From Lacrimispora amygdalina (lineage in GTDB: Bacteria; Bacillota; Clostridia; Lachnospirales; Lachnospiraceae), in contig NZ_QOHO01000114.1 of the NCBI RefSeq assembly GCF_003432035.1, positions 1 through 34,855 on the forward strand: DNA of 34,855 nucleotides, in the 5' to 3' direction. Positions within the stretch are counted from its first letter, which is position 1. Each line of letters opens with the position of its first letter. Of this stretch, positions 22,290 to 32,763 are shown in pieces. Under the pieces are notes generated by a model. That model made no database searches. It worked only from the letters and a program-made list of their open reading frames with translations, and was not told where the DNA came from. The translations under genes were made by a program, and so were the position numbers.

Positions 22290-22378
22290 TTTGAGATATA
22301 AAACAATCCAACGAGGCATGATTTCATTCCAGGCCGGAAGATACCGGAATGGAACAGAAGCATGAATGGGGGAAATTT

Positions 22379-23344
22379 ATGACAACAAAAATTATTGGAA
22401 CAGGTTCGGCAGTTCCGGACCGTGTGGTCACCAATGATGATCTGGCAAAAATTGTGGATACCAGTGATGAATGGATCCAGTCAAGGACGGGAATCAGAGA
22501 ACGACGGATCGCTGAGTCTGAGTCCGGCACCACGGATCTTGCTATAAAAGCAGCAATGGCTGCGTTAAAGGATTCCGGTATATCGGCTGATGAACTGGAC
22601 ATTATAGTTTTGGCCACTTCTTCTCCAGACCGCTGTTTTCCCAGCGGAGCCTGTGAAGTACAGGCCGCTATTGGTGCACATGGAGCAATTGCTTTTGATT
22701 TAAGTGCTGCATGTTCCGGCTTTATCTATGGCTTTCATACAATTTCCGCTTTTTTTCAGGCGGGAATCTATAAAACAGGTCTGATAATCGGTGCGGATAC
22801 GTTAAGCAAGCTGATTGACTGGACGGACAGAGGCACCTGCGTACTTTTTGGAGATGGTGCAGGAGCGGCAGTAGTACGGGCAGAGGATAAGGGAAAACTT
22901 TATATGACCATGGGTGCCGATGGCACAAGGGGAAATGCACTGGAATGTGTATCACGGACAACAGGCAATTTTCTCACTGGTAACAAACCGGAAACTGGCT
23001 ACATGACCATGGATGGACAGGAAGTATTCCGGTTTGCAGTAAAAACGGTACCGGAGGCAATCTTAGAGGTGCTTTCCGAGAGCGGAACGGATTTAAGTGA
23101 AATTAAGTATTTTATCCTGCATCAGGCCAATTACCGGATCTTTGAATCGATTGCAAAGAGATTAAAGGTGCCAATGGAGAAGTTTCCTACCAATTTAGAG
23201 CGTTATGGAAATACGTCGGGAGCATCGGTACCTCTTTTATTAGATGAACTGAACAAGACTGGAAAGCTGCAGCAGGGGGATAAGATTGTACTTGCCGGAT
23301 TTGGGGCAGGACTTACCTGGGGAGCCACTCTTATGGAGTGGTAA
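22379..23344 (+). CDS. fabH: Beta-ketoacyl-ACP synthase III
   Basis: A 321-residue initiation enzyme condensing acyl-CoA with malonyl-ACP. The catalytic triad is complete: Cys112 in SAACSGF, His248 in LHQAN, Asn278 in GNTSGAS. Family length is about 320. The ATG at 22379 is chosen (GGGGGA 6-7 nt upstream, and the protein then begins MTTKIIGTGSAVP as FabH does) over the in-frame ATG at 22349. First gene of the fab operon, behind the palindromic operator at 22271-22289. A 76-base gap holding a second palindrome separates it from acpP. Confidence 0.97.
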   Translation: MTTKIIGTGSAVPDRVVTNDDLAKIVDTSDEWIQSRTGIRERRIAESESGTTDLAIKAAMAALKDSGISADELDIIVLATSSPDRCFPSGACEVQAAIGAHGAIAFDLSAACSGFIYGFHTISAFFQAGIYKTGLIIGADTLSKLIDWTDRGTCVLFGDGAGAAVVRAEDKGKLYMTMGADGTRGNALECVSRTTGNFLTGNKPETGYMTMDGQEVFRFAVKTVPEAILEVLSESGTDLSEIKYFILHQANYRIFESIAKRLKVPMEKFPTNLERYGNTSGASVPLLLDELNKTGKLQQGDKIVLAGFGAGLTWGATLMEW

Positions 23345-23353
23345 ATAATAGGA

Positions 23354-23380
23354 CTAATACTTTGGTAAACAAAGTACTAG
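23354..23380. promoter_or_regulatory. Second FabT-like palindrome before acpP
   Basis: Eleven-base arms (CTAATACTTTG and CAAAGTACTAG) with a single mismatch surround GTAAA. The inner part is A-C-TTTG-N5-CAAA-G-T, the same A-N-TTTG-N5-CAAA-N-T frame as the operator at fabH. A weak promoter (TTGGTA at 23362-23367; TATAAA at 23383-23388, spacer 15) overlaps it. As RNA it would be a hairpin without a T-run, so processing or mRNA stabilisation is the alternative. Confidence 0.5.
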
Positions 23381-23420
23381 CATATAAATTGAATACGATG
23401 AAGCAAAAGGAGATTAGAAG

Positions 23421-23654
23421 ATGTTAGAAAAAATGCAGGAAATTATCGCAGAGCAGTTAAATGTGGAGGCTGGAATCATTAAGCCGGAATCCTCTTTTAA
23501 AGAGGACTTAGGAGCAGATTCCCTTGATTTATTCGAACTGGTTATGGCTCTTGAAGATGAGTACTCAGTTGAGATTCCCTCTGAGGATTTGGAGAAATTA
23601 ACAACAGTTCAGCAGGTTATGGACTATTTAAAAGCAAAGGGCGTGGAAGCGTAA
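23421..23654 (+). CDS. acpP: Acyl carrier protein
   Basis: A 77-residue, strongly acidic four-helix carrier. The phosphopantetheine attachment serine is in the canonical [10 protein letters not shown] motif. Length and charge match bacterial ACP. AAGGAG lies ahead of the ATG. The stop overlaps the fabK start by one base (TAATG), so the two are translationally coupled. Its expected high demand fits the possible extra promoter or mRNA processing site between fabH and acpP. Confidence 0.98.
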
Positions 23655-24577
23655 TGAATACCAGAATCACCCAACTTTTGGGAATTGAATATCCCATCAT
23701 ACAGGGCGGTATGGCATGGGTTGCGGAGCACCATCTTGCAGCAGCTGTATCGGAAGCTGGTGGTCTGGGATTGATCGGCGGAGCCAATGCACCGGGTGAA
23801 GTGGTGCGTGATGAAATCCGCAAAGCAAAGAAGCTGACTAATAAACCAATTGGTGTTAATGTCATGCTTTTGAGCCCTCATGCTGAAGATGTGGCAAAGG
23901 TTATTGTAGAGGAAGGCATTAAGGTGGTAACCACTGGTGCCGGTAATCCGGAAAAATACATGGAGATGTGGAAGGCTGCAGGGATTAAAGTAATTCCAGT
24001 TGTCGCTTCCGTAGCACTTGCAAAGAGAATGGAGCGTTATGGCGCTGATGCAGTTGTTGCAGAGGGCTGTGAATCCGGAGGACACATTGGTGAGCAGACT
24101 ACCATGACGTTAGTTCCCCAGGTAGCAGATGCGGTTTCCATTCCTGTTATAGCAGCGGGCGGAATTGGTGACGGCAGAGGAATCGCAGCAGCATTTATGC
24201 TGGGTGCTGAGGCTGTCCAGATCGGAACCAGATTTGTGGTCTCCAAAGAATCCATTGTACATGACAATTATAAACAGAGAATTATAAAAGCAAAGGATAT
24301 TGATTCCGCAGTTACAGGACGTACACACGGACATCCGGTGAGATCTTTAAGAAACCAGATGACCAGAGAGTATGTGAAGCTGGAGGAAGAAGGAAAATCC
24401 TTTGAAGAACTGGAGTATCTAACCCTTGGAACTCTTCGGAAAGCTGTTTTAGAGGGAGATGTTATTAACGGTACGGTTATGGCCGGACAGATTGCAGGTA
24501 TGATAAGCAAGGAACAGACCTGTAAAGAGATGATTGAAGAAATGATGGAACAGGCCGGGAAGCTTCTTGGCCGTTAA
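23654..24577 (+). CDS. fabK: Enoyl-ACP reductase II (FMN)
   Basis: A 307-residue FMN-dependent TIM-barrel reductase for the last step of each elongation round, the type that replaces FabI in many Firmicutes. Visible: IQGGMAWVAEHHLAAAVSEAGGLG at the N-terminus, GVNVML, VAEGCESGGHIGE with the active-site His of the NMO/FabK superfamily, and AAGGIGDGRG then QIGTRFV for phosphate of FMN. It lies between acpP and fabD, the usual fabK position. It lacks the C-terminal cysteine cluster of the related protein at 31605-32726, which makes the two easy to tell apart. Confidence 0.96.
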   Translation: MNTRITQLLGIEYPIIQGGMAWVAEHHLAAAVSEAGGLGLIGGANAPGEVVRDEIRKAKKLTNKPIGVNVMLLSPHAEDVAKVIVEEGIKVVTTGAGNPEKYMEMWKAAGIKVIPVVASVALAKRMERYGADAVVAEGCESGGHIGEQTTMTLVPQVADAVSIPVIAAGGIGDGRGIAAAFMLGAEAVQIGTRFVVSKESIVHDNYKQRIIKAKDIDSAVTGRTHGHPVRSLRNQMTREYVKLEEEGKSFEELEYLTLGTLRKAVLEGDVINGTVMAGQIAGMISKEQTCKEMIEEMMEQAGKLLGR

Positions 24578-24593
24578 AGAGGAGTTTATGACT

Positions 24594-25511
24594 ATGAGCA
24601 AGATCGCATTTATTTTCCCAGGCCAGGGCGCGCAGTACTGCGGAATGGGCCAGGATTTTTATGAGCAGACAGCAATTGGAAAAGAAATCTATGATATGGC
24701 TTCCGGACTTCTTGGTTTTTCCCTGCCGGAACTCTGCTTTGAGAAGAATGACCGTCTGGACATTACAGAATATACGCAGGCAGCCATGGTGACGACAGGG
24801 ATCGCCATGATGAGGGTGCTGGAAGAAAAAACAGGGATCAGACCGGATGTGACGGCTGGTTTAAGCCTGGGAGAATATTGCGCGCTTGCAGCAGCAGGTG
24901 TGATGAGTGATCCGGATGCTATTTTAACAGTCAGACAGAGAGGAATCCTTATGCAGGAAGCTGTTCCTGCGGGATTGGGAGCGATGTCGGCCGTTCTTTC
25001 TCTGGATGCTGCTGAAATCGAAGAGGTTTTAAGCCGGATTGAAGGAGTTCAGATCGCAAATTATAACTGCCCGGGGCAGATTGTTATATCAGGAAAGAAA
25101 GAAGCGGTTGAGGAAGCCGGTGAGAAGCTTCTGGCAGCAGGAGCGAAGAGAGTCATTGGCTTAAATGTCAGTGGACCTTTCCATTCCGCGATGCTGACTG
25201 GTGCCGGTGAAAAACTGGGAATCGTCCTTGAGAACATAGAAATTCATAAGCCTGTGATCCCTTATGTGGCAAATGTAACAGCCGCTTATGTAACAGAGGC
25301 AGATGAGGTAAAGCCTTTATTAATCCGACAGGTATCTTCTTCCGTACGTTTCCAGCAGAGTGTGGAAACCATGATCAAGGACGGAGTGGATACGTTTATA
25401 GAAATCGGACCTGGAAAAACCCTTGCAGGGTTTATTAAGAAGATAACGAGAGATGCAAAAGTCTTTAATATAGAAAAACTGGAAGATTTGGATAAATTAG
25501 CAGGAATTTAA
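24594..25511 (+). CDS. fabD: Malonyl-CoA:ACP transacylase
   Basis: 305 residues. Loads malonyl from CoA to ACP. FPGQGAQ opens the protein; the nucleophile is Ser91 in GLSLGEY (Leu replaces the more common His of GHSLG), with RQRG at 114-117 and catalytic His197 in GPFHSAM. The ATG at 24594 has GAGGAG nine bases upstream; an in-frame ATG at 24588 is too close to the SD and the TTG at 24567 would overlap fabK. fabG follows after 16 bases. Confidence 0.96.
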
Positions 25512-25527
25512 CGGGGAGGTGACAGAT

Positions 25528-26268
25528 ATGTTAGATGGAAAAATAGCGGTGGTTACTGGTGCCAGCAGAGGAATCGGAAGAGCAGTCGCATTAAGGCTGG
25601 GACTGGAAGGAGCCACTGTAATTGTCAATTATAATGGTTCGGAAGAAAAAGCACTTCAGGTAGTAAAAGAGATTGAAGAAAATGGTGGTAAAGCAGAAGC
25701 AATTGCCTGCAATGTATCGGATTATGAAGCTTCAGGTGCTTTTCTTGACGGAGTAATAAAGAAATACGGAAAGCTTGATATTCTTGTAAATAACGCAGGC
25801 ATTACCAGAGATAATCTTCTTATGAAAATGTCGGAGGATGAGTTTGATGCAGTTATCAGTACGAACTTAAAAGGGGTATTTAACTGTATGAAACATGTTT
25901 CCCGTCAGATGATTAAGCAGAAGGGCGGAAGAATCATCAACATCTCTTCTGTTTCAGGAATTCTTGGGAATGCAGGTCAGGCCAATTACTGCGCAGCTAA
26001 GGCTGGAGTTATCGGCATGACGAAATCATTTGCAAGAGAAGCTGCAACCAGAGGAATAACAGTAAATGCCATAGCACCCGGCTATATACAGACAGATATG
26101 ACGGATGTGCTGTCTGATTCTGTTAAGGAAGCCTCTTTAGACCAGATCCCAATGAAACGTTTTGGAACGCCGGAAGATGTTGCGGATGCGGCTGTATTTC
26201 TTGCATCAGACCAGGCTGGTTATATCACAGGGCAGGTCATCAGTGTGGATGGCGGAATGGCTATGTAA
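25528..26268 (+). CDS. fabG: 3-oxoacyl-ACP reductase
   Basis: A 246-residue short-chain dehydrogenase reducing beta-ketoacyl-ACP with [13 protein letters not shown] (10-17) binds the cofactor, NNAG is at 88-91, and the catalytic set is Ser141, Tyr154 and Lys158 (QANYCAAK). The C-terminal [12 protein letters not shown] is typical. The ATG at 25528 lies eight bases after GGGGAGG; an upstream GTG at 25519 overlaps the SD and is rejected. fabF begins 16 bases after the stop. Confidence 0.97.
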
Positions 26269-26284
26269 AAAGGAGAATAACGGT

Positions 26285-27523
26285 ATGAATAGAAGAGTGG
26301 TAGTAACCGGTATGGGAGCAATAACTCCTATTGGAAATGATGTAGAAAGTTTCTGGAATGGACTGAAAGAAAAAAAGGTGGGAATCGCACCCATTACACA
26401 GTTTGATACAACGGATTTTAAGGCGACACTGGCTGCAGAGGTAAAGGATTTCGATCCTAAGAATTACATGGATATAAAAGCAGCCAAGCGCATGGAGCGT
26501 TTTGCGCAGTTTGCGGTTGCAGCTACAAAGGAAGCTCTTGAAATGTCAGGAATAGATATGGAAAAAGAAGATCCTTATCGCGTGGGCGTTAGTGTGGGTT
26601 CCGGGATTGGAAGCCTGCAGGCCGTAGAGCGGGAACATAAAAAGCTTTTGGAGAAAGGTCCGGGCAGAGTCAATCCTCTTTTGGTTCCCTTGATGATATC
26701 CAACATGGCAGCGGGAAATGTGGGGATTCAGTTCGGATTAAAGGGCAAGTGCATCAATGTGGTTACGGCCTGTGCCACGGGAACCCATTCCATAGGAGAG
26801 GCGTTCCGGTCCATCCAGTATGGGGAAGCGGATGTGATGGTGGCAGGAGGTGCGGAAGCCAGCGTTACGCCGATCGGTGTAGCCGGATTTTCGGCTCTTA
26901 CTGCACTTACTACTTCAGATGATCCGCTCCGTGCTTCCATCCCATTTGATAAGGACAGAAGCGGCTTTGTTATGGGGGAAGGTGCAGGCGTTGTTGTATT
27001 AGAAGAACTGGAACATGCGCTTTCCAGAAATGCCGTTATCTACGGGGAAGTAGTTGGCTACGGGTCAACCTGTGATGCATACCATATTACCTCTCCTGCT
27101 GAGGACGGAAGCGGTGCTGCAAGAGCGATGACAGAGGCTATAAAAGATGCCGGTATTACAGCCAGAGAACTGGACTATGTCAATGCTCATGGAACCAGCA
27201 CGCATCACAACGACTTATTTGAAACCATGGCGATCAAAACTGCTTTAGGCGATCATGCAGAAAAGGTTAAAATCAATTCTACAAAATCCATGGTCGGACA
27301 CCTTCTCGGCGCGGCCGGGGGCGTGGAATTCATTGCCTGTGTAAAAACCATACAGGATGGATTTGTTCATGCCACTGCCGGTCTGGTAGAAGAAGGAGAA
27401 GGCTGTGATTTAAACTATACAAAGGGTGAGGGAGTTTCCTGTGATGTGACTTATGCCATCAGCAATTCCCTGGGCTTTGGTGGTCATAATGCCAGCATTC
27501 TTGTAAAGAAGTTTGAACAGTAG
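26285..27523 (+). CDS. fabF: Beta-ketoacyl-ACP synthase II
   Basis: A 412-residue elongation condensing enzyme. The Cys-His-His triad is Cys163 (TACATGTHS), His302 (NAHGTSTHHND) and His339 (KSMVGHLLGAAGG); NSLGFGGHN near the C-terminus completes the signature. The ATG at 26285 has AAGGAG nine bases upstream; the frame is open further upstream into fabG but without support. In organisms lacking FabB it must also extend unsaturated intermediates, relevant to the FabX-like gene at the operon end. accB follows after 12 bases. Confidence 0.97.
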   Translation: MNRRVVVTGMGAITPIGNDVESFWNGLKEKKVGIAPITQFDTTDFKATLAAEVKDFDPKNYMDIKAAKRMERFAQFAVAATKEALEMSGIDMEKEDPYRVGVSVGSGIGSLQAVEREHKKLLEKGPGRVNPLLVPLMISNMAAGNVGIQFGLKGKCINVVTACATGTHSIGEAFRSIQYGEADVMVAGGAEASVTPIGVAGFSALTALTTSDDPLRASIPFDKDRSGFVMGEGAGVVVLEELEHALSRNAVIYGEVVGYGSTCDAYHITSPAEDGSGAARAMTEAIKDAGITARELDYVNAHGTSTHHNDLFETMAIKTALGDHAEKVKINSTKSMVGHLLGAAGGVEFIACVKTIQDGFVHATAGLVEEGEGCDLNYTKGEGVSCDVTYAISNSLGFGGHNASILVKKFEQ

Positions 27524-27535
27524 GAGGCAGTCATA

Positions 27536-28009
27536 ATGGAAATAAATGATGTGATCAGACTGATGCAGGCCGTTTCAGAACAGGGCCTCACCGGTTTTAA
27601 GCTGGAAGATGGAGACTTTAAGTTATCCATTAAGAAAGAAAAGCAGATGGTTATTGCCACAGAAGGGGATTATGTTCAGAGAAGTCTGGAAATGCCTGCA
27701 TATGCCGGACAGGAAACGAAAGCACCGGTAATGGAGGAGGGAGCGGACACTGTGAAGGCGGAAGCGCTCTCTACCGATAAGATTGTATCATCTCCTCTGG
27801 TAGGAACCTTTTACAATTCTTCTTCACCGGACAGTATGCCGTTTGTTAAGGCAGGAGATACCGTTAAGAAGGGGCAGACACTTGGTATCATCGAAGCCAT
27901 GAAGCTGATGAATGAGATTGAATGTGAATACGATGGTGTGGTAGAAGCCGTTCTGGTTGGAAATGAAGATGTGGTGGAATACGGTCAGCCTCTGTTCCGT
28001 ATCCGGTAG
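27536..28009 (+). CDS. accB: Biotin carboxyl carrier protein of acetyl-CoA carboxylase
   Basis: A 157-residue carrier: N-terminal helical segment, flexible middle, and a C-terminal biotinyl domain (about 82-157) with Lys123 in the EAMKLMNE biotinylation motif. SSPLVGTFY opens the domain as in other BCCPs. AGGAGG precedes the ATG by 8 nt. A strong hairpin at 28025-28052 lies between it and fabZ. Confidence 0.97.
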   Translation: MEINDVIRLMQAVSEQGLTGFKLEDGDFKLSIKKEKQMVIATEGDYVQRSLEMPAYAGQETKAPVMEEGADTVKAEALSTDKIVSSPLVGTFYNSSSPDSMPFVKAGDTVKKGQTLGIIEAMKLMNEIECEYDGVVEAVLVGNEDVVEYGQPLFRIR

Positions 28010-28024
28010 GTTATTGTAAAATCT

Positions 28025-28054
28025 AAGAGAGGTCCAGGGTCGGACCTCTCTTTT
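28025..28054 (+). terminator. Hairpin between accB and fabZ (weak terminator or processing site)
   Basis: A perfect 11-bp stem (28025-28035 with 28042-28052) with loop AGGGTC, followed by only four Ts in total before AAAA. It probably attenuates or protects mRNA rather than ending transcription, since fabZ and the acc genes follow at once. Confidence 0.6.
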
Positions 28055-28070
28055 AAAATAAGGAGAGAGC

Positions 28071-28496
28071 ATGATGTTAGGTATAAAAGAAATTCAGGAA
28101 ATTATTCCTCACAGACACCCGTTTTTGCTGGTAGACTGTATTGAAGAGCTGGAGCCCGGGGTAAGGGCTGTCGGGTATAAATGTGTCACTTATGATGAAT
28201 CCTTCTTCCGGGGACATTTTCCTGAGGAACCGGTTATGCCGGGTGTTTTAATCATTGAGGCTCTGGCTCAGGTTGGGGCGGCTGCAATATTAAGCATGGA
28301 AGAGAATAAGGGAAAGATCGCTTATTTCGGAGGCATTGATAAGGCTAAATTTAAAAAGAAGGTAATTCCAGGAAGCAAGTTAAAACTGGAATGTGAAATT
28401 ATAAAAAGAAAGGGTCCGGTAGGAGTTGGGAAAGCGGTTGCCACCGTAGATGGCAAAATCGCTGCCAGCGCAGAACTGACATTTATGATTGGATAG
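28071..28496 (+). CDS. fabZ: 3-hydroxyacyl-ACP dehydratase
   Basis: A 141-residue hotdog-fold dehydratase forming trans-2-enoyl-ACP. The family motifs are HRHPFLLVD (14-22), catalytic His49 in [12 protein letters not shown] and Glu63 in LIIEALAQ. Two adjacent ATGs (28071, 28074) are possible; AGGAG is 5 or 8 nt upstream. It is the only dehydratase in the operon; no FabA is seen, so FabZ alone would not explain unsaturated fatty acids. accC starts 10 bases after its stop. Confidence 0.97.
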
Positions 28497-28506
28497 GTGG
28501 AGATCG

Positions 28507-29859
28507 ATGTTTGATAAGATTTTAATTGCCAACCGCGGTGAAATTGCGGTAAGAATCATAAGAGCATGCAGGGAAATGGGGATTAAAACGGTTGCCGTAT
28601 ATTCGGAAGCGGACCGGGAAAGCCTTCATACCCTTCTGGCGGATGAAGCCATCTGCATCGGTCCTGCACCGTCGACTCAGAGTTATTTAAATATGGAACG
28701 GATCCTTACAGCCACCGTTGCCATGAAAGCGGATGCAATTCATCCTGGGTTTGGATTTCTTTCTGAGAATGCAAGGTTTGCAGAACTCTGTGAAAAATGC
28801 AGCATCACCTTTATCGGACCTGACGCCGGAATCATCAATAAAATGGGAAATAAATCAGAAGCCAGAAAAACCATGATGGAAGCAGGAGTTCCGGTAGTGC
28901 CGGGCGGGAAAGAAGCCGTTCACCATGTAGAAGAAGCCAGGGAAATGGCAGAGCGGATCGGATTTCCTGTTATGATCAAGGCCTCATCAGGAGGCGGCGG
29001 TAAAGGAATGCGTATTTCAAGAAGTCTGGATGATTTTGATTCCAATTTTAAGAATGCCCAGATGGAATCGGTAAAAGGATTTTCCGATGATACCATGTAC
29101 ATTGAGAAATACATTGAAAAACCCAGACACATTGAGTTTCAGATACTCGCAGATCAGATGGGCAATGTGATCCATCTGGGAGAACGTGACTGTTCCATCC
29201 AGAGACGGCACCAGAAGGTTCTGGAGGAATCCCCTTCTGCAGCAATATCAGAAGAACTGCGCCACCAGATGGGAGAGGTTGCAGTCCGTGCTGCTAAGGC
29301 CGTTGGTTATGTAAATGCAGGAACCATTGAATTTTTGCTGGATAAAGATAAGAATTTCTATTTTATGGAAATGAATACAAGGATTCAGGTGGAGCATCCG
29401 GTTACGGAGATGGTAACCGGCCTGGATCTGATAAAGGAACAGATCCGGATTGCAGCAGGAGAACCGCTGAGTGTGGCACAGGATGATGTTAAAATCGCGG
29501 GTCATGCCATTGAATGCAGAATTAATGCCGAAAATCCGGCGAAAAATTTCATGCCATGTCCAGGTCTTATTAAAAACGTTCACGTGCCGGGAGGTAACGG
29601 AGTACGAATTGATACTCATATTTACAACGATTATAAGGTTCCGGCAAATTATGACTCCATGCTGATGAAGCTGGTGGTTCATGGGAAAGACCGAACGGAA
29701 GCGATTGCAAAGATGAGAAGCGCCCTTGGGGAACTGATTATCGAAGGAATAGAAACCAATGTTGATTTTCAGTTTGATATCTTGAGCCATGAAGCATATC
29801 GTGACGGTGATATAGATACAGACTTTATTCCTAAATTCTTCCCGGATTATGTCCGGTAA
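28507..29859 (+). CDS. accC: Biotin carboxylase subunit of acetyl-CoA carboxylase
   Basis: A 450-residue ATP-grasp enzyme that carboxylates biotin on Acc[17 protein letters not shown] opens the protein; [12 protein letters not shown] is the glycine-rich ATP loop, [12 protein letters not shown] and [14 protein letters not shown] are the active-site segments. The ATG at 28507 follows GTGGAG closely and gives the standard [11 protein letters not shown] start; a TTG six codons upstream is unlikely. It is followed 21 bases later by the carboxyltransferase fusion. Confidence 0.97.
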
Positions 29860-29880: not shown

Positions 29881-31605
29881 ATGTTAAGAGACATGTTTAA
29901 GAAAACTTATACCCTGATTGACAGCAAATACAGGACGGTGGAGAAAACCGGGGAACCCAATATTCCGGAAGGACTTTGGAAGAAGTGCAACAAATGCTGT
30001 CAGCCAATCTATGCGGAGGACGTAAGGAACAGTCATTACGTATGTCCGAAGTGCAAGGGATATTTCAGGGTTCACGCCTTTCAGAGAATCGAAATGACGG
30101 CAGATGCGGGAACCTTTGAAGAGTGGGATAAGGAGATTGAATTTGAGAATCCTCTTGATTTCCCCGGATATGAAAAAAAGATTGCGGCAGCCAGAGAAAA
30201 GACAGGACTTTCAGAGGCAATTGTAACCGGTGTCTGTGAAATTAACGGTCAGAAAGCGGTACTTGGTGTCTGTGATGCAGGCTTTATTATGAGCAGCATG
30301 GGGCATGCAGTAGGAGAAAAGATTGCCAGAGCTGTGGAGCGTGCGACGGAAGAAAAGCTTCCTGTTATTTTATTTGCCTGTTCCGGCGGAGCCAGAATGC
30401 AGGAGGGAATCGTGTCCTTAATGCAGATGGCAAAAACTTCGGCAGCATTAAAGCGCCACCATAAAGCCGGGCAGCTTTATGTTAGTGTTCTTACAGATCC
30501 CACAACGGGCGGTGTCACTGCAAGCTTTGCAATGCTTGGAGATATCATTCTTGCAGAGCCGGGAGCTTTAATTGGTTTTGCAGGTCCCCGGGTTATTGAG
30601 CAGACGATTGGTCAGAAACTGCCGGAAGGTTTCCAGAGGGCAGAATTTTTACTGGAACATGGCTTTGTTGATAAGATCGTTCCAAGAGAAGAGATGAAGG
30701 ATACATTAACTGCTGTCTTAAAACTCCACAATCCCCACAATAAGGAAAGCTTTTGTGTGGATAACCAGGAAACAGATGAAAGCATCTGTGGAAAAAAGAA
30801 CGGGTTCTGGTTTAAGAAGAATAAACGAAGCCCCTGGGATACTGTACAACTGTCAAGAAGTGCTGACCGTCCTGTAGCCTCCGATTATATTCATCAGCTC
30901 TTTGATGATTTTATGGAGTTTGCCGGAGACCGTTATTTTAAAGATGACGGAGCGATTATAGGCGGAATTGCATCCTTTCACGGGATGCCTGTTACAGTAA
31001 TCGGTCAGGAAAAGGGTAAGAATACAAAGGATAACATCAGGCGGAATTTTGGTATGCCGTCACCGGAAGGATATAGAAAAGCCTTAAGGCTGATGAAGCA
31101 GGCGGAGAGTTTCAAACGTCCGGTCATCTGCTTTGTGGATACGCCTGGCGCGTTCTGCGGTCTCGAGGCAGAGGAGCGGGGACAGGGAGAAGCCATTGCC
31201 AGAAACTTATTTGAAATGGCAGACTTAACAGTACCGGTTCTTTCCATTGTGATCGGAGAGGGCGGAAGCGGAGGAGCTCTTGCCATGGCAGTGGGCAATG
31301 AAGTCTGGATGATGGAAAACTCCATTTATTCCATTCTTTCTCCGGAAGGCTTTGCCTCCATTCTGTATAAAGACAGCAAAAAAGCCAATGATGCAGCCAG
31401 AGTCATGAAGATCACCGCAAAGGACTTAATGGATCTTGGACTCATTGAGCGGGTAATACCGGAAGAAGAGCCTGCCTGTGCAGAAAATCTTCCGGAGATT
31501 GCGAAGGAAATGGACCGGGCCATGATAGAATTCTTTTCCGATTTCCTTACCATGACAGAAGAAGAACTTGCAAATCAAAGATATGATAGATTTAGGAGAA
31601 TGTGA
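29881..31605 (+). CDS. accDA: Fused acetyl-CoA carboxylase carboxyltransferase beta-alpha (AccD-AccA)
   Basis: 574 residues in one uninterrupted frame. Residues 1 to about 285 are AccD: zinc ribbon Cys36, Cys39, Cys55, Cys58, then the crotonase-like core with SGGARMQEG (168-176). Residues about 317-574 are AccA, beginning RSPWDTVQLSR and carrying GEGGSGGALA (459-468). A linker of about 30 polar residues (NKESFCVDNQ... to KKNKR) joins them, and the helical N-terminal segment that separate AccA proteins carry is missing. No start codon with SD exists at the junction, so it is a true fusion. It transfers the carboxyl group from biotin to acetyl-CoA, giving malonyl-CoA. GAGGAG precedes the ATG. 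Confidence 0.95.
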   Translation: MLRDMFKKTYTLIDSKYRTVEKTGEPNIPEGLWKKCNKCCQPIYAEDVRNSHYVCPKCKGYFRVHAFQRIEMTADAGTFEEWDKEIEFENPLDFPGYEKKIAAAREKTGLSEAIVTGVCEINGQKAVLGVCDAGFIMSSMGHAVGEKIARAVERATEEKLPVILFACSGGARMQEGIVSLMQMAKTSAALKRHHKAGQLYVSVLTDPTTGGVTASFAMLGDIILAEPGALIGFAGPRVIEQTIGQKLPEGFQRAEFLLEHGFVDKIVPREEMKDTLTAVLKLHNPHNKESFCVDNQETDESICGKKNGFWFKKNKRSPWDTVQLSRSADRPVASDYIHQLFDDFMEFAGDRYFKDDGAIIGGIASFHGMPVTVIGQEKGKNTKDNIRRNFGMPSPEGYRKALRLMKQAESFKRPVICFVDTPGAFCGLEAEERGQGEAIARNLFEMADLTVPVLSIVIGEGGSGGALAMAVGNEVWMMENSIYSILSPEGFASILYKDSKKANDAARVMKITAKDLMDLGLIERVIPEEEPACAENLPEIAKEMDRAMIEFFSDFLTMTEEELANQRYDRFRRM

Positions 31606-32726
31606 TGGGAACATTAAAACCATTGGTAATAGGAGATCTGGTGGCAAAATATCCGGTAATTCAGGGTGGAATGGGAGTCGGAATCAGTCTTTCCTCTCTT
31701 GCGGGAGCTGTTGCAAAAGCAGGAGGAGTCGGTATCATTTCTACGGCACAGATTGGCTTTAAACAGCCTGATTTCCTTAAGAATCCCTTAGAGGCTAATT
31801 TGCGTGCTATCGGGGAGGAAATGAAAAAAGCCAGGGAAATCGCTCCTGATGGAATTATTGGCTTTAATATTATGGTTGCCACCAAAAATTATGCAAGCTA
31901 TGTAAAAAAGGCGGTATTAGCAGGGGCTGATATAATCATCTCCGGAGCAGGGCTTCCCGTAAGTCTTCCGGAGTATGTGGCGGAAGCGGCAGAAGAAGCA
32001 GGAATTAAACTGAAAACAAAAATTGCCCCAATTGTCTCTACTGTGAAGTCCGCTATGGTTATCTGCAAAATGTGGGACCGCAAATTCCATCAGGCTCCGG
32101 ATCTGGTTGTGGTGGAAGGACCCTTAGCCGGCGGACACCTGGGCTTTTCCAGAGATGATTTATCGGAACTGGGCGTTGATACCGAGGATGTGGAACACAC
32201 CTTCCGTCAGGCGGATTATGACGAGGAGATAAGAGGTATTATCCGTCTTGTACGGGAATATGGGGAAAAGTATAATAAAGTGATACCGGTAGTAACTGCC
32301 GGAGGAATATACACCCATGAGGATGTAATGCATCAGATTGATCTGGGTGCTGACGGTGTTCAGGTTGCAACCAGGTTTGTGACAACTGAGGAATGTGATG
32401 CTCCCCAGGAGTTTAAAGATGCCTACATTCAGTCATCAAAGGAAGATATCGTCATTACGAAAAGCCCGGTAGGAATGCCGGGAAGAGCAATAAAAAATCC
32501 GTTTTTAAATCATGTAGCTGATACCCCGTTCCGGCTGGAGCACTGCTACGACTGTCTGGAGAAATGTGACAAAAAGACCATACCCTACTGCATTACCAAA
32601 GCACTGATTTCATCGGCAGAAGGAAGAACCGAAGAAGGTCTGGTATTTTGCGGAAGCAATGCTTTCCGGGCAGAGAAGATGGAAACGGTTGATGAAGTAA
32701 TGAAGGATCTGGTTTTCGGAAAATAA
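31605..32726 (+). CDS. NMO-family flavoprotein with cysteine cluster, FabX-like candidate
   Basis: A 373-residue TIM-barrel flavoprotein of the nitronate monooxygenase/FabK superfamily: IQGGMGVGISLSSLAGAVAKAGG, the PLAGGHLGFS active-site histidine (His178), and TAGGIYTHED for FMN phosphate. It differs from FabK by a longer sequence and a C-terminal Cys cluster C314-x2-C317-x3-C321-x7-C329 (CYDCLEKC...YC), suited to an iron-sulfur cluster. Helicobacter FabX is an FMN and [4Fe-4S] member of this superfamily that makes the double bond of unsaturated fatty acids. The ATG overlaps the accDA stop (TGATG) with its SD inside accDA, so it is coupled to the fab operon. FabX function is inference; an accessory enoyl reductase or true NMO is possible. 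Confidence 0.8.
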   Translation: MGTLKPLVIGDLVAKYPVIQGGMGVGISLSSLAGAVAKAGGVGIISTAQIGFKQPDFLKNPLEANLRAIGEEMKKAREIAPDGIIGFNIMVATKNYASYVKKAVLAGADIIISGAGLPVSLPEYVAEAAEEAGIKLKTKIAPIVSTVKSAMVICKMWDRKFHQAPDLVVVEGPLAGGHLGFSRDDLSELGVDTEDVEHTFRQADYDEEIRGIIRLVREYGEKYNKVIPVVTAGGIYTHEDVMHQIDLGADGVQVATRFVTTEECDAPQEFKDAYIQSSKEDIVITKSPVGMPGRAIKNPFLNHVADTPFRLEHCYDCLEKCDKKTIPYCITKALISSAEGRTEEGLVFCGSNAFRAEKMETVDEVMKDLVFGK

Positions 32727-32729
32727 CAG

Positions 32730-32763
32730 AAGGCTGCAGGAGATATGTCCTGCGGCCTTTTTT
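32730..32763 (+). terminator. Terminator of the fatty acid operon
   Basis: A 12-bp stem (32730-32741 with 32748-32759, one G-T pair), loop GATATG, followed by a T-run to 32763. It lies directly after the FabX-like gene, which places that gene inside the fab transcript. Confidence 0.93.

Follow-up and report, generated by a model that had tools for sequence, protein, structure and literature searches.

The fab operon and its last gene

The window, a stretch of 34,855 nucleotides of Lacrimispora amygdalina DNA (contig NZ_QOHO01000114.1), carries a fatty acid synthesis (fab) operon with the gene order fabH-acpP-fabK-fabD-fabG-fabF-accB-fabZ-accC-accDA, at the end of which lies a gene encoding a protein related to the flavo-iron-sulfur enzyme FabX of Helicobacter pylori (Table 1). 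Expected Pfam domains were found in the products of fabH, acpP, fabD, fabG, fabF, accB, fabZ, accC and accDA. In several Clostridium loci the match to accDA consists of two separate parts, as against the single 574-amino-acid (aa) fusion here.

The open reading frame of the fabX-like gene is uninterrupted and its ATG start lies within the accDA stop. Judged from this TGATG overlap, accDA and the fabX-like gene are probably translationally coupled. Directly 3' of the fabX-like stop is a hairpin (-24.2 kcal/mol, z -6.6; none of 200 shuffles equal) with a run of six T, a probable operon terminator, although it was missing from the output of a simple terminator scan. Both the overlap and the placement before a putative terminator had been described in an initial annotation of this DNA and are present in the sequence.

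Table 1. Positions of the fabX-like gene, its motifs and the neighbouring features in the window (NMO, nitronate monooxygenase; FMN, flavin mononucleotide)
Feature	Position	Strand	Details
fabX-like gene	31605..32726	+	373 aa; FMN-type TIM (triosephosphate isomerase) barrel (NMO fold) and C-terminal four-cysteine part
GGH, residues 176-178	32130..32138	+	His aligned to FabX H182
C-x2-C-x3-C-x7-C, residues 314/317/321/329	32544..32591	+	predicted [4Fe-4S] ligands; aligned to FabX C300/C304/C308/C320
TGATG stop/start overlap of accDA and fabX-like gene	31603..31607	+	accDA stop 31603-31605, ATG 31605-31607
hairpin and run of six T, probable operon terminator	32728..32761	+	folding compared with shuffles
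accDA, fused acetyl-CoA carboxylase carboxyltransferase, 574 aa	29881..31605	+	both accD and accA domains (Pfam)
fabZ	28071..28496	+	sole FabA/FabZ-domain match in genome
fabK, the operon's own enoyl-ACP reductase	23654..24577	+	493.2 bits on TIGR03151, cut-off 453.1
remaining fab operon: fabH, acpP, fabK, fabD, fabG, fabF, accB, fabZ, accC	22349..29859	+	Pfam; fabK by equivalog

Family, fold and cysteine ligands

The initial annotation took the product for a second member of the NMO/FabK superfamily, and it does match PF03060 (161.5 bits). On the FabK equivalog TIGR03151 it scored 110.4 bits against the 453.1 required and is thus not classed as a FabK. Neither PF07977 nor the crotonase domain PF00378 was listed for it at 1e-3. 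In a phmmer search of solved sequences the top four distinct matches were H. pylori FabX (E about 3e-67 (3.4e-67), residues 2-371), with FabK chains appearing from 3e-19. Among the latter was a T. maritima chain filed as a putative nitroalkane dioxygenase (9e-19); the remaining NMO-named chains were at 1e-11 or weaker. The AlphaFold2 model (predicted local distance difference test score 94.5) aligned with FabX (7e1q) over 347 residues (Z 49.8, root-mean-square deviation 1.9), compared with Z values of 34.9-36.3 for FabK and 26.8-33.5 for NMO-type chains.

The [4Fe-4S] ligands of FabX are given in PMC8626469 as C300, C304, C308 and C320, with H182 as catalytic residue. A MAFFT alignment places a Cys of the window protein at each of the four ligand positions and a His at that of H182. 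The two motifs singled out by the initial annotation, GGH and the C-terminal cysteine cluster, thus align with those of FabX, with a cysteine spacing of x2-x3-x7 rather than x3-x3-x11. All FMN-site and catalytic residues that were compared (G22, G23, M24, N99, E175, G180, H182, Q240 and T243 in FabX numbering) were kept.

Conservation was followed in two locus samples. The first came from 62 other genomes with full-length-type matches, which gave 60 loci (59 genomes) and, with three more, 63. After the fragment L079 was dropped from the 60 clostridial loci, the four cysteines and the H182 histidine were present in all 59 aligned homologues, while the cysteines were found in none of 20 FabKs from the same loci. 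Since it was kept in 59 of 59, the cysteine motif is not due to chance. The second sample consists of the 80 named loci that stood highest, by likeness to one Clostridium-type query, among at least 578 relatives, and so is not an even one; by a spacing pattern it had the cysteines at all 80 loci (77 spaced x2-x3-x7, two x3-x3-x7 and one odd). The pattern was also found in 358 of 360 proteins collected as three lists of nearest relatives (239 x2-x3-x7 and 119 x3-x3-x11); the two others, P0120 and P0165, have substitutions within the motif.

Phylogeny

Columns of the cluster were removed before trees were built. A quick tree of 67 rows separated 50 four-cysteine proteins (those of clostridia and Helicobacter, UfaA-type proteins, one cyanobacterial and one from Sphingomonas) from the rest by a branch of length 1.71 with a Shimodaira-Hasegawa-like approximate likelihood ratio test (SH-aLRT) value of 100. 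On the opposite side were 14 FabKs and three cysteine-less proteins that are NMOs by annotation name only and do not form one group among themselves. A more careful tree of 56 rows, which leaves out the long-branched Sphingomonas row, grouped its 39 four-cysteine rows with bootstrap/SH-aLRT support of 100/100. Support for the clostridial members as a single clade was only 10 in the 67-row tree. The window protein is thus a member of the FabX/UfaA group, though not a demonstrated one-to-one orthologue.

The initial annotation had left room for a phylogenetic position among true nitronate monooxygenases; trees and structure comparison instead place the protein with FabX and UfaA, apart from FabK and from the cysteine-less NMOs. 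That it is a true NMO, or another detoxifying flavin oxidase merely sitting in the operon, is highly improbable. Homologues do carry the public names nitronate monooxygenase or 2-nitropropane dioxygenase. Set against these names are the separation in both trees, the weaker structural scores to NMOs, the conserved cysteines and a placement in fab operons that recurs at differing positions.

Plasmid-encoded 'nitronate monooxygenase' proteins of Caballeronia, Cupriavidus and Sphingomonas (L242, L243 and L245) bear the four FabX cysteines, and public NMO names therefore hide likely iron-sulfur members.

Neighbourhood in relatives

Genes for fatty acid synthesis or acetyl-CoA carboxylase (fab/acc) were found in the same stretch at 22 of the 63 loci of full-length homologues, spanning ten families; by our own arithmetic about one in a hundred is expected by chance. 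Within these 22 the gene lies after accDA, before accD, in the fabK/fabD gap, in the fabG/fabF gap, beside fabD, upstream of fabH or divergent from fabH. One further locus (L049), counted outside the 22, has only accC/accB-like neighbours (42-45%). In the second sample a script's rule found a fab-type gene at 42 of 80 loci (L147 among them through a doubtful match to a short-chain dehydrogenase/reductase) and none at 38. The initial annotation had asked whether the gene regularly follows accDA. This holds in part: accDA was the nearest upstream fab-type gene at 25 of the 80 loci, and in other clostridia the gene has a different place in the operon (five loci between fabZ and fabH, one between accC and accD) or lies away from it.

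In C. tyrobutyricum the gene between the fabX-type gene and fabH is of MarR type, and a MarR-type match occupied this position in 13 of 24 scanned loci (two from the same genome). The streptococcal order is fabM-fabT-fabH.

Distribution across clostridial genomes

A match at 1e-20 was present in 69 of 293 genomes of the class. The four-cysteine motif was found in 67 of the 69 (58 aligned, the host, two added later and six short variants); the match of G172 is cut by a contig end and that of G175 is divided between two frames. At the G175 locus (L079, about 9.2-10.2 kb) the fabX-type gene follows accDA in two frames, possibly through a frameshift or an assembly error.

Matches were concentrated in genomes with a FabA/FabZ domain (67 of 218, against 2 of 75 without one). 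When the short variants were excluded (63 genomes), the gene was present in 61 and absent from 157 of the FabA/FabZ-positive genomes and present in 2 and absent from 73 of the negative ones (Fisher P = 4e-7, without correction for relatedness); 52 of these 63 genomes also have FabK at 1e-60. The FabX-type gene thus goes with type II fatty acid synthesis, although the majority of FabZ-positive clostridia are without it.

The six short variants (L272-L277, in G071, G206, G116, G095, G117 and G048) are open frames of 319-329 residues with GGH and C-x2-C-x3-C-x4-C, 34-36% identical, in genomes that also have FabK. No convincing fab gene lies within about 10 kb of any of them. They are counted in the genome totals but not in the trees, the count of 59 or the Fisher test.

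Retention of the gene when the enoyl reductase changes

Seven Lachnospiraceae loci (L125, L127, L128, L132, L139, L142 and L160) have acpP directly before fabD and no fabK in the operon. In their genomes (G293-G299) the FabX-type gene was the sole match to FabK, at 82 bits at most, and matches to Escherichia coli FabI reached no more than 57 bits, the two scanned fitting sugar dehydrogenases best. FabK and FabI were thus not found in the seven genomes; the search covered these two and FabV, and FabL and other reductases were not sought. FabV was present in all seven (PF12241, 358-377 bits); two scanned parts scored 365 and 369 with the FabV model, for which a whole protein would need 400. None of seven comparators had FabV (five FabK genomes, the host with FabK, and G305, with a FabI (44%) and not searched for FabK). 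As the seven genomes were picked for missing fabK, seven of seven against none of seven is a pattern and not a random sample. The pattern suggests that FabV has taken the place of FabK in these seven Lachnospiraceae, with the FabX-type gene retained while the reductase type changes.

The seven operons bear on the possibility that the protein is a second enoyl-ACP (acyl carrier protein) reductase backing up FabK, with which it shares superfamily and operon. The lack of a FabK or FabI match in their genomes would favour it, but the FabV in all seven weakens it, as the post of reductase is then filled, whichever type is used. In Fusobacterium, overexpressed FabX raised the minimum inhibitory concentration of a FabK inhibitor to 3.1 ug/ml, from 0.4 ug/ml with empty vector, as reported in PMC11091888, a hint of reductase capacity. 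On the other side, the cysteines are missing from FabKs of the same loci, and the authors of PMC8626469 suggest that the cluster domain replaces the NAD(P)H-binding motif of FabK. We regard a back-up reductase as improbable.

Unsaturated fatty acids in the host group

The initial annotation considered that the host might make no unsaturated fatty acids, which does not agree with published data on Lacrimispora. The window protein is 95% identical to a protein of a Lacrimispora sp., and strains of this genus are reported to contain C16:1 cis 9, C16:1 cis 7, C18:1 cis 9 and C18:1 cis 11 dimethyl acetal (DMA) (PMC12578346); these strains were grown on blood plates, and some of the cis-9 C18:1 may come from uptake. 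C18:1 cis 11 DMA is described as a major acid of L. brassicae (PMC11316579), and an obligately anaerobic life is reported for L. sanguinis. By our derivation, the cis-9/cis-11 positions fit insertion of the double bond at C10, and cis-7/cis-9 insertion at C12.

The initial annotation also held that the operon has one dehydratase and no FabA, FabM or FabN. The single dehydratase stands, as only one FabA/FabZ-domain match was found in the 5.94-Mb genome of the host, and a desaturase (FA_desaturase) match was not found there. The absence of FabM is less certain in view of three crotonase matches considered below.

Labelling of a clostridium led to the proposal of the anaerobic route to unsaturated fatty acids (PMC2700279). 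That 2009 paper describes C. acetobutylicum as lacking FabA, FabM and FabN and its FabZ as without isomerase activity, and concludes that the double bond is made by a 'novel and unknown enzyme'. A protein filed under C. acetobutylicum (P0299) has all four cysteines and is 68% identical to a C. acidisoli protein.

A candidate for the double-bond enzyme

The protein is assigned to the FabX/UfaA type on the basis of its sequence and predicted fold, the conserved Cys and His, its phylogenetic position and the recurrent location of the gene in fab operons. From these, it is likely a flavo-iron-sulfur enzyme of this type that places a cis double bond in acyl-ACP during type II synthesis, and the fabX-like gene is a strong candidate for the gene of the clostridial double-bond enzyme, for which none had long been known. 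The parallel with FabX drawn in the initial annotation is supported by the aligned cysteines, the tree and the structure comparison; cluster, activity and oxygen-free working would be expected by analogy.

The protein would bind FMN and a [4Fe-4S] cluster and act on acyl-ACP at the C10 (and C12) stage. Its product would be cis-3-enoyl-ACP, to be elongated to cis-9 C16:1/cis-11 C18:1 (and cis-7/cis-9). O2 cannot serve as oxidant here because the host group is anaerobic. In a first route, trans-2-decenoyl-ACP supplied by FabZ of the same operon would be isomerized with no net redox, the job of FabM. In a second, decanoyl-ACP would be dehydrogenated and electrons would pass via the cluster to ferredoxin or flavodoxin. 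We lean slightly towards the first. For the family as a whole, it is moderately likely that it is the missing clostridial double-bond enzyme and independent of O2. It would then be a flavo-iron-sulfur isomerase that converts the FabZ product with no net redox, or else an acyl-ACP dehydrogenase linked to ferredoxin. In some operons of Clostridiaceae type its gene would hold a FabM-like position by a FabT-like regulator, and in many Lachnospiraceae the operon end.

Several observations weigh against this interpretation, in addition to the hint of reductase capacity in Fusobacterium FabX. FabX uses O2 in vitro, as reported in PMC11300592 and PMC8626469. Of the ACP-contact residues of FabX, the window protein shares K152 and K159 but has Lys for R164, Met for R160 and Val for T130. 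At 41 of the 63 loci there is no convincing fab gene nearby, some of these loci being on short contigs. Three crotonase matches in the host genome, all off the window contig, might include a FabM; none reaches its NCBIfam cut-off (matched parts only) and one of them lies in a 163-aa open frame. The gene is absent from 151 of 218 FabZ-positive clostridial genomes, and any of these making unsaturated acids therefore need another route. No activity, iron or knockout test of a clostridial FabX was found in the literature, subscription papers being outside the search.

No alternative double-bond enzyme was identified in 20 FabZ regions from FabZ-positive, FabX-negative clostridia. Two of the host crotonases had no match at 1e-4 in any of the 20, which says little because fabZ stood without other fab genes in 11 of them. 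Two adjoining crotonases of the host (L249 and L250; contig C96, about 27-32 kb) lie with a ketosynthase-III-like gene and a probable thioesterase (names by eye), which looks like part of a polyketide cluster.

The patchy distribution (67 of 218 FabZ-positive genomes), the differing ACP-contact residues and the four-cysteine NMO-family proteins of Cupriavidus, Caballeronia and Sphingomonas would also fit a member of the FabX clade doing another redox step on acyl chains, the real double-bond enzyme lying elsewhere. However, synthesis of unsaturated acids is reported to require FabX (PMC8626469) and, in the gonococcus, UfaA (as cited in PMC11300592), and we consider such a role distinctly improbable.

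The general idea of a FabX-type route in anaerobes is already in print: a 2011 title on UfaA, in the reference list of PMC11300592, mentions 'obligate anaerobes that lack FabA', and PMC8626469 counts FabX homologues of >50% identity in 1650 species, most of them anaerobes, from 7 phyla. At 38% identity, the window protein would not reach that threshold. Evidence from fab operons across clostridia was not found in the openly searchable literature. With a single gene, often within the fab operon, and a homologue filed as C. acetobutylicum, the question is now open to direct testing. If confirmed, the enzyme would account for the control of membrane fluidity in such anaerobes and reveal how a FabX-type enzyme runs without oxygen.

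Comparison with known systems

The closest likeness is to H. pylori FabX (HP0773; PDB 7e1q and 9lt5), with homology over the full length (38% identity over 347 structurally aligned residues) and a shared TIM barrel, FMN-site residues, catalytic His and four cluster cysteines. The window protein differs in its first (x2, not x3) and last (x7, not x11) cysteine gaps, has Lys for R164 and Met for Y277, and belongs to an anaerobic host group, whereas FabX uses O2.

UfaA of Neisseria gonorrhoeae (NGO1024, probably the gonococcal gene retrieved here as L239) also aligns in its four cysteines and His, but is only 33% identical and has a longer cysteine loop. PMC11300592 cites UfaA as essential for making unsaturated acids anaerobically, with an unknown acceptor. 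The Fusobacterium nucleatum homologue C4N14_08920 is likewise a FabX relative with the cysteines, in an anaerobe that also has FabK; according to PMC11091888 it differs in being 51% identical to H. pylori FabX and in sharing its operon with one hypothetical gene.

FabK (enoyl-ACP reductase II) shares superfamily and operon with the window protein but is without the cluster cysteines, and the window protein stays far below the FabK cut-off. Streptococcal FabM belongs to the crotonase family and is unrelated, yet the proposed product, cis-3-decenoyl-ACP, is the same, and the fabX-marR-fabH order of some clostridia resembles fabM-fabT-fabH.

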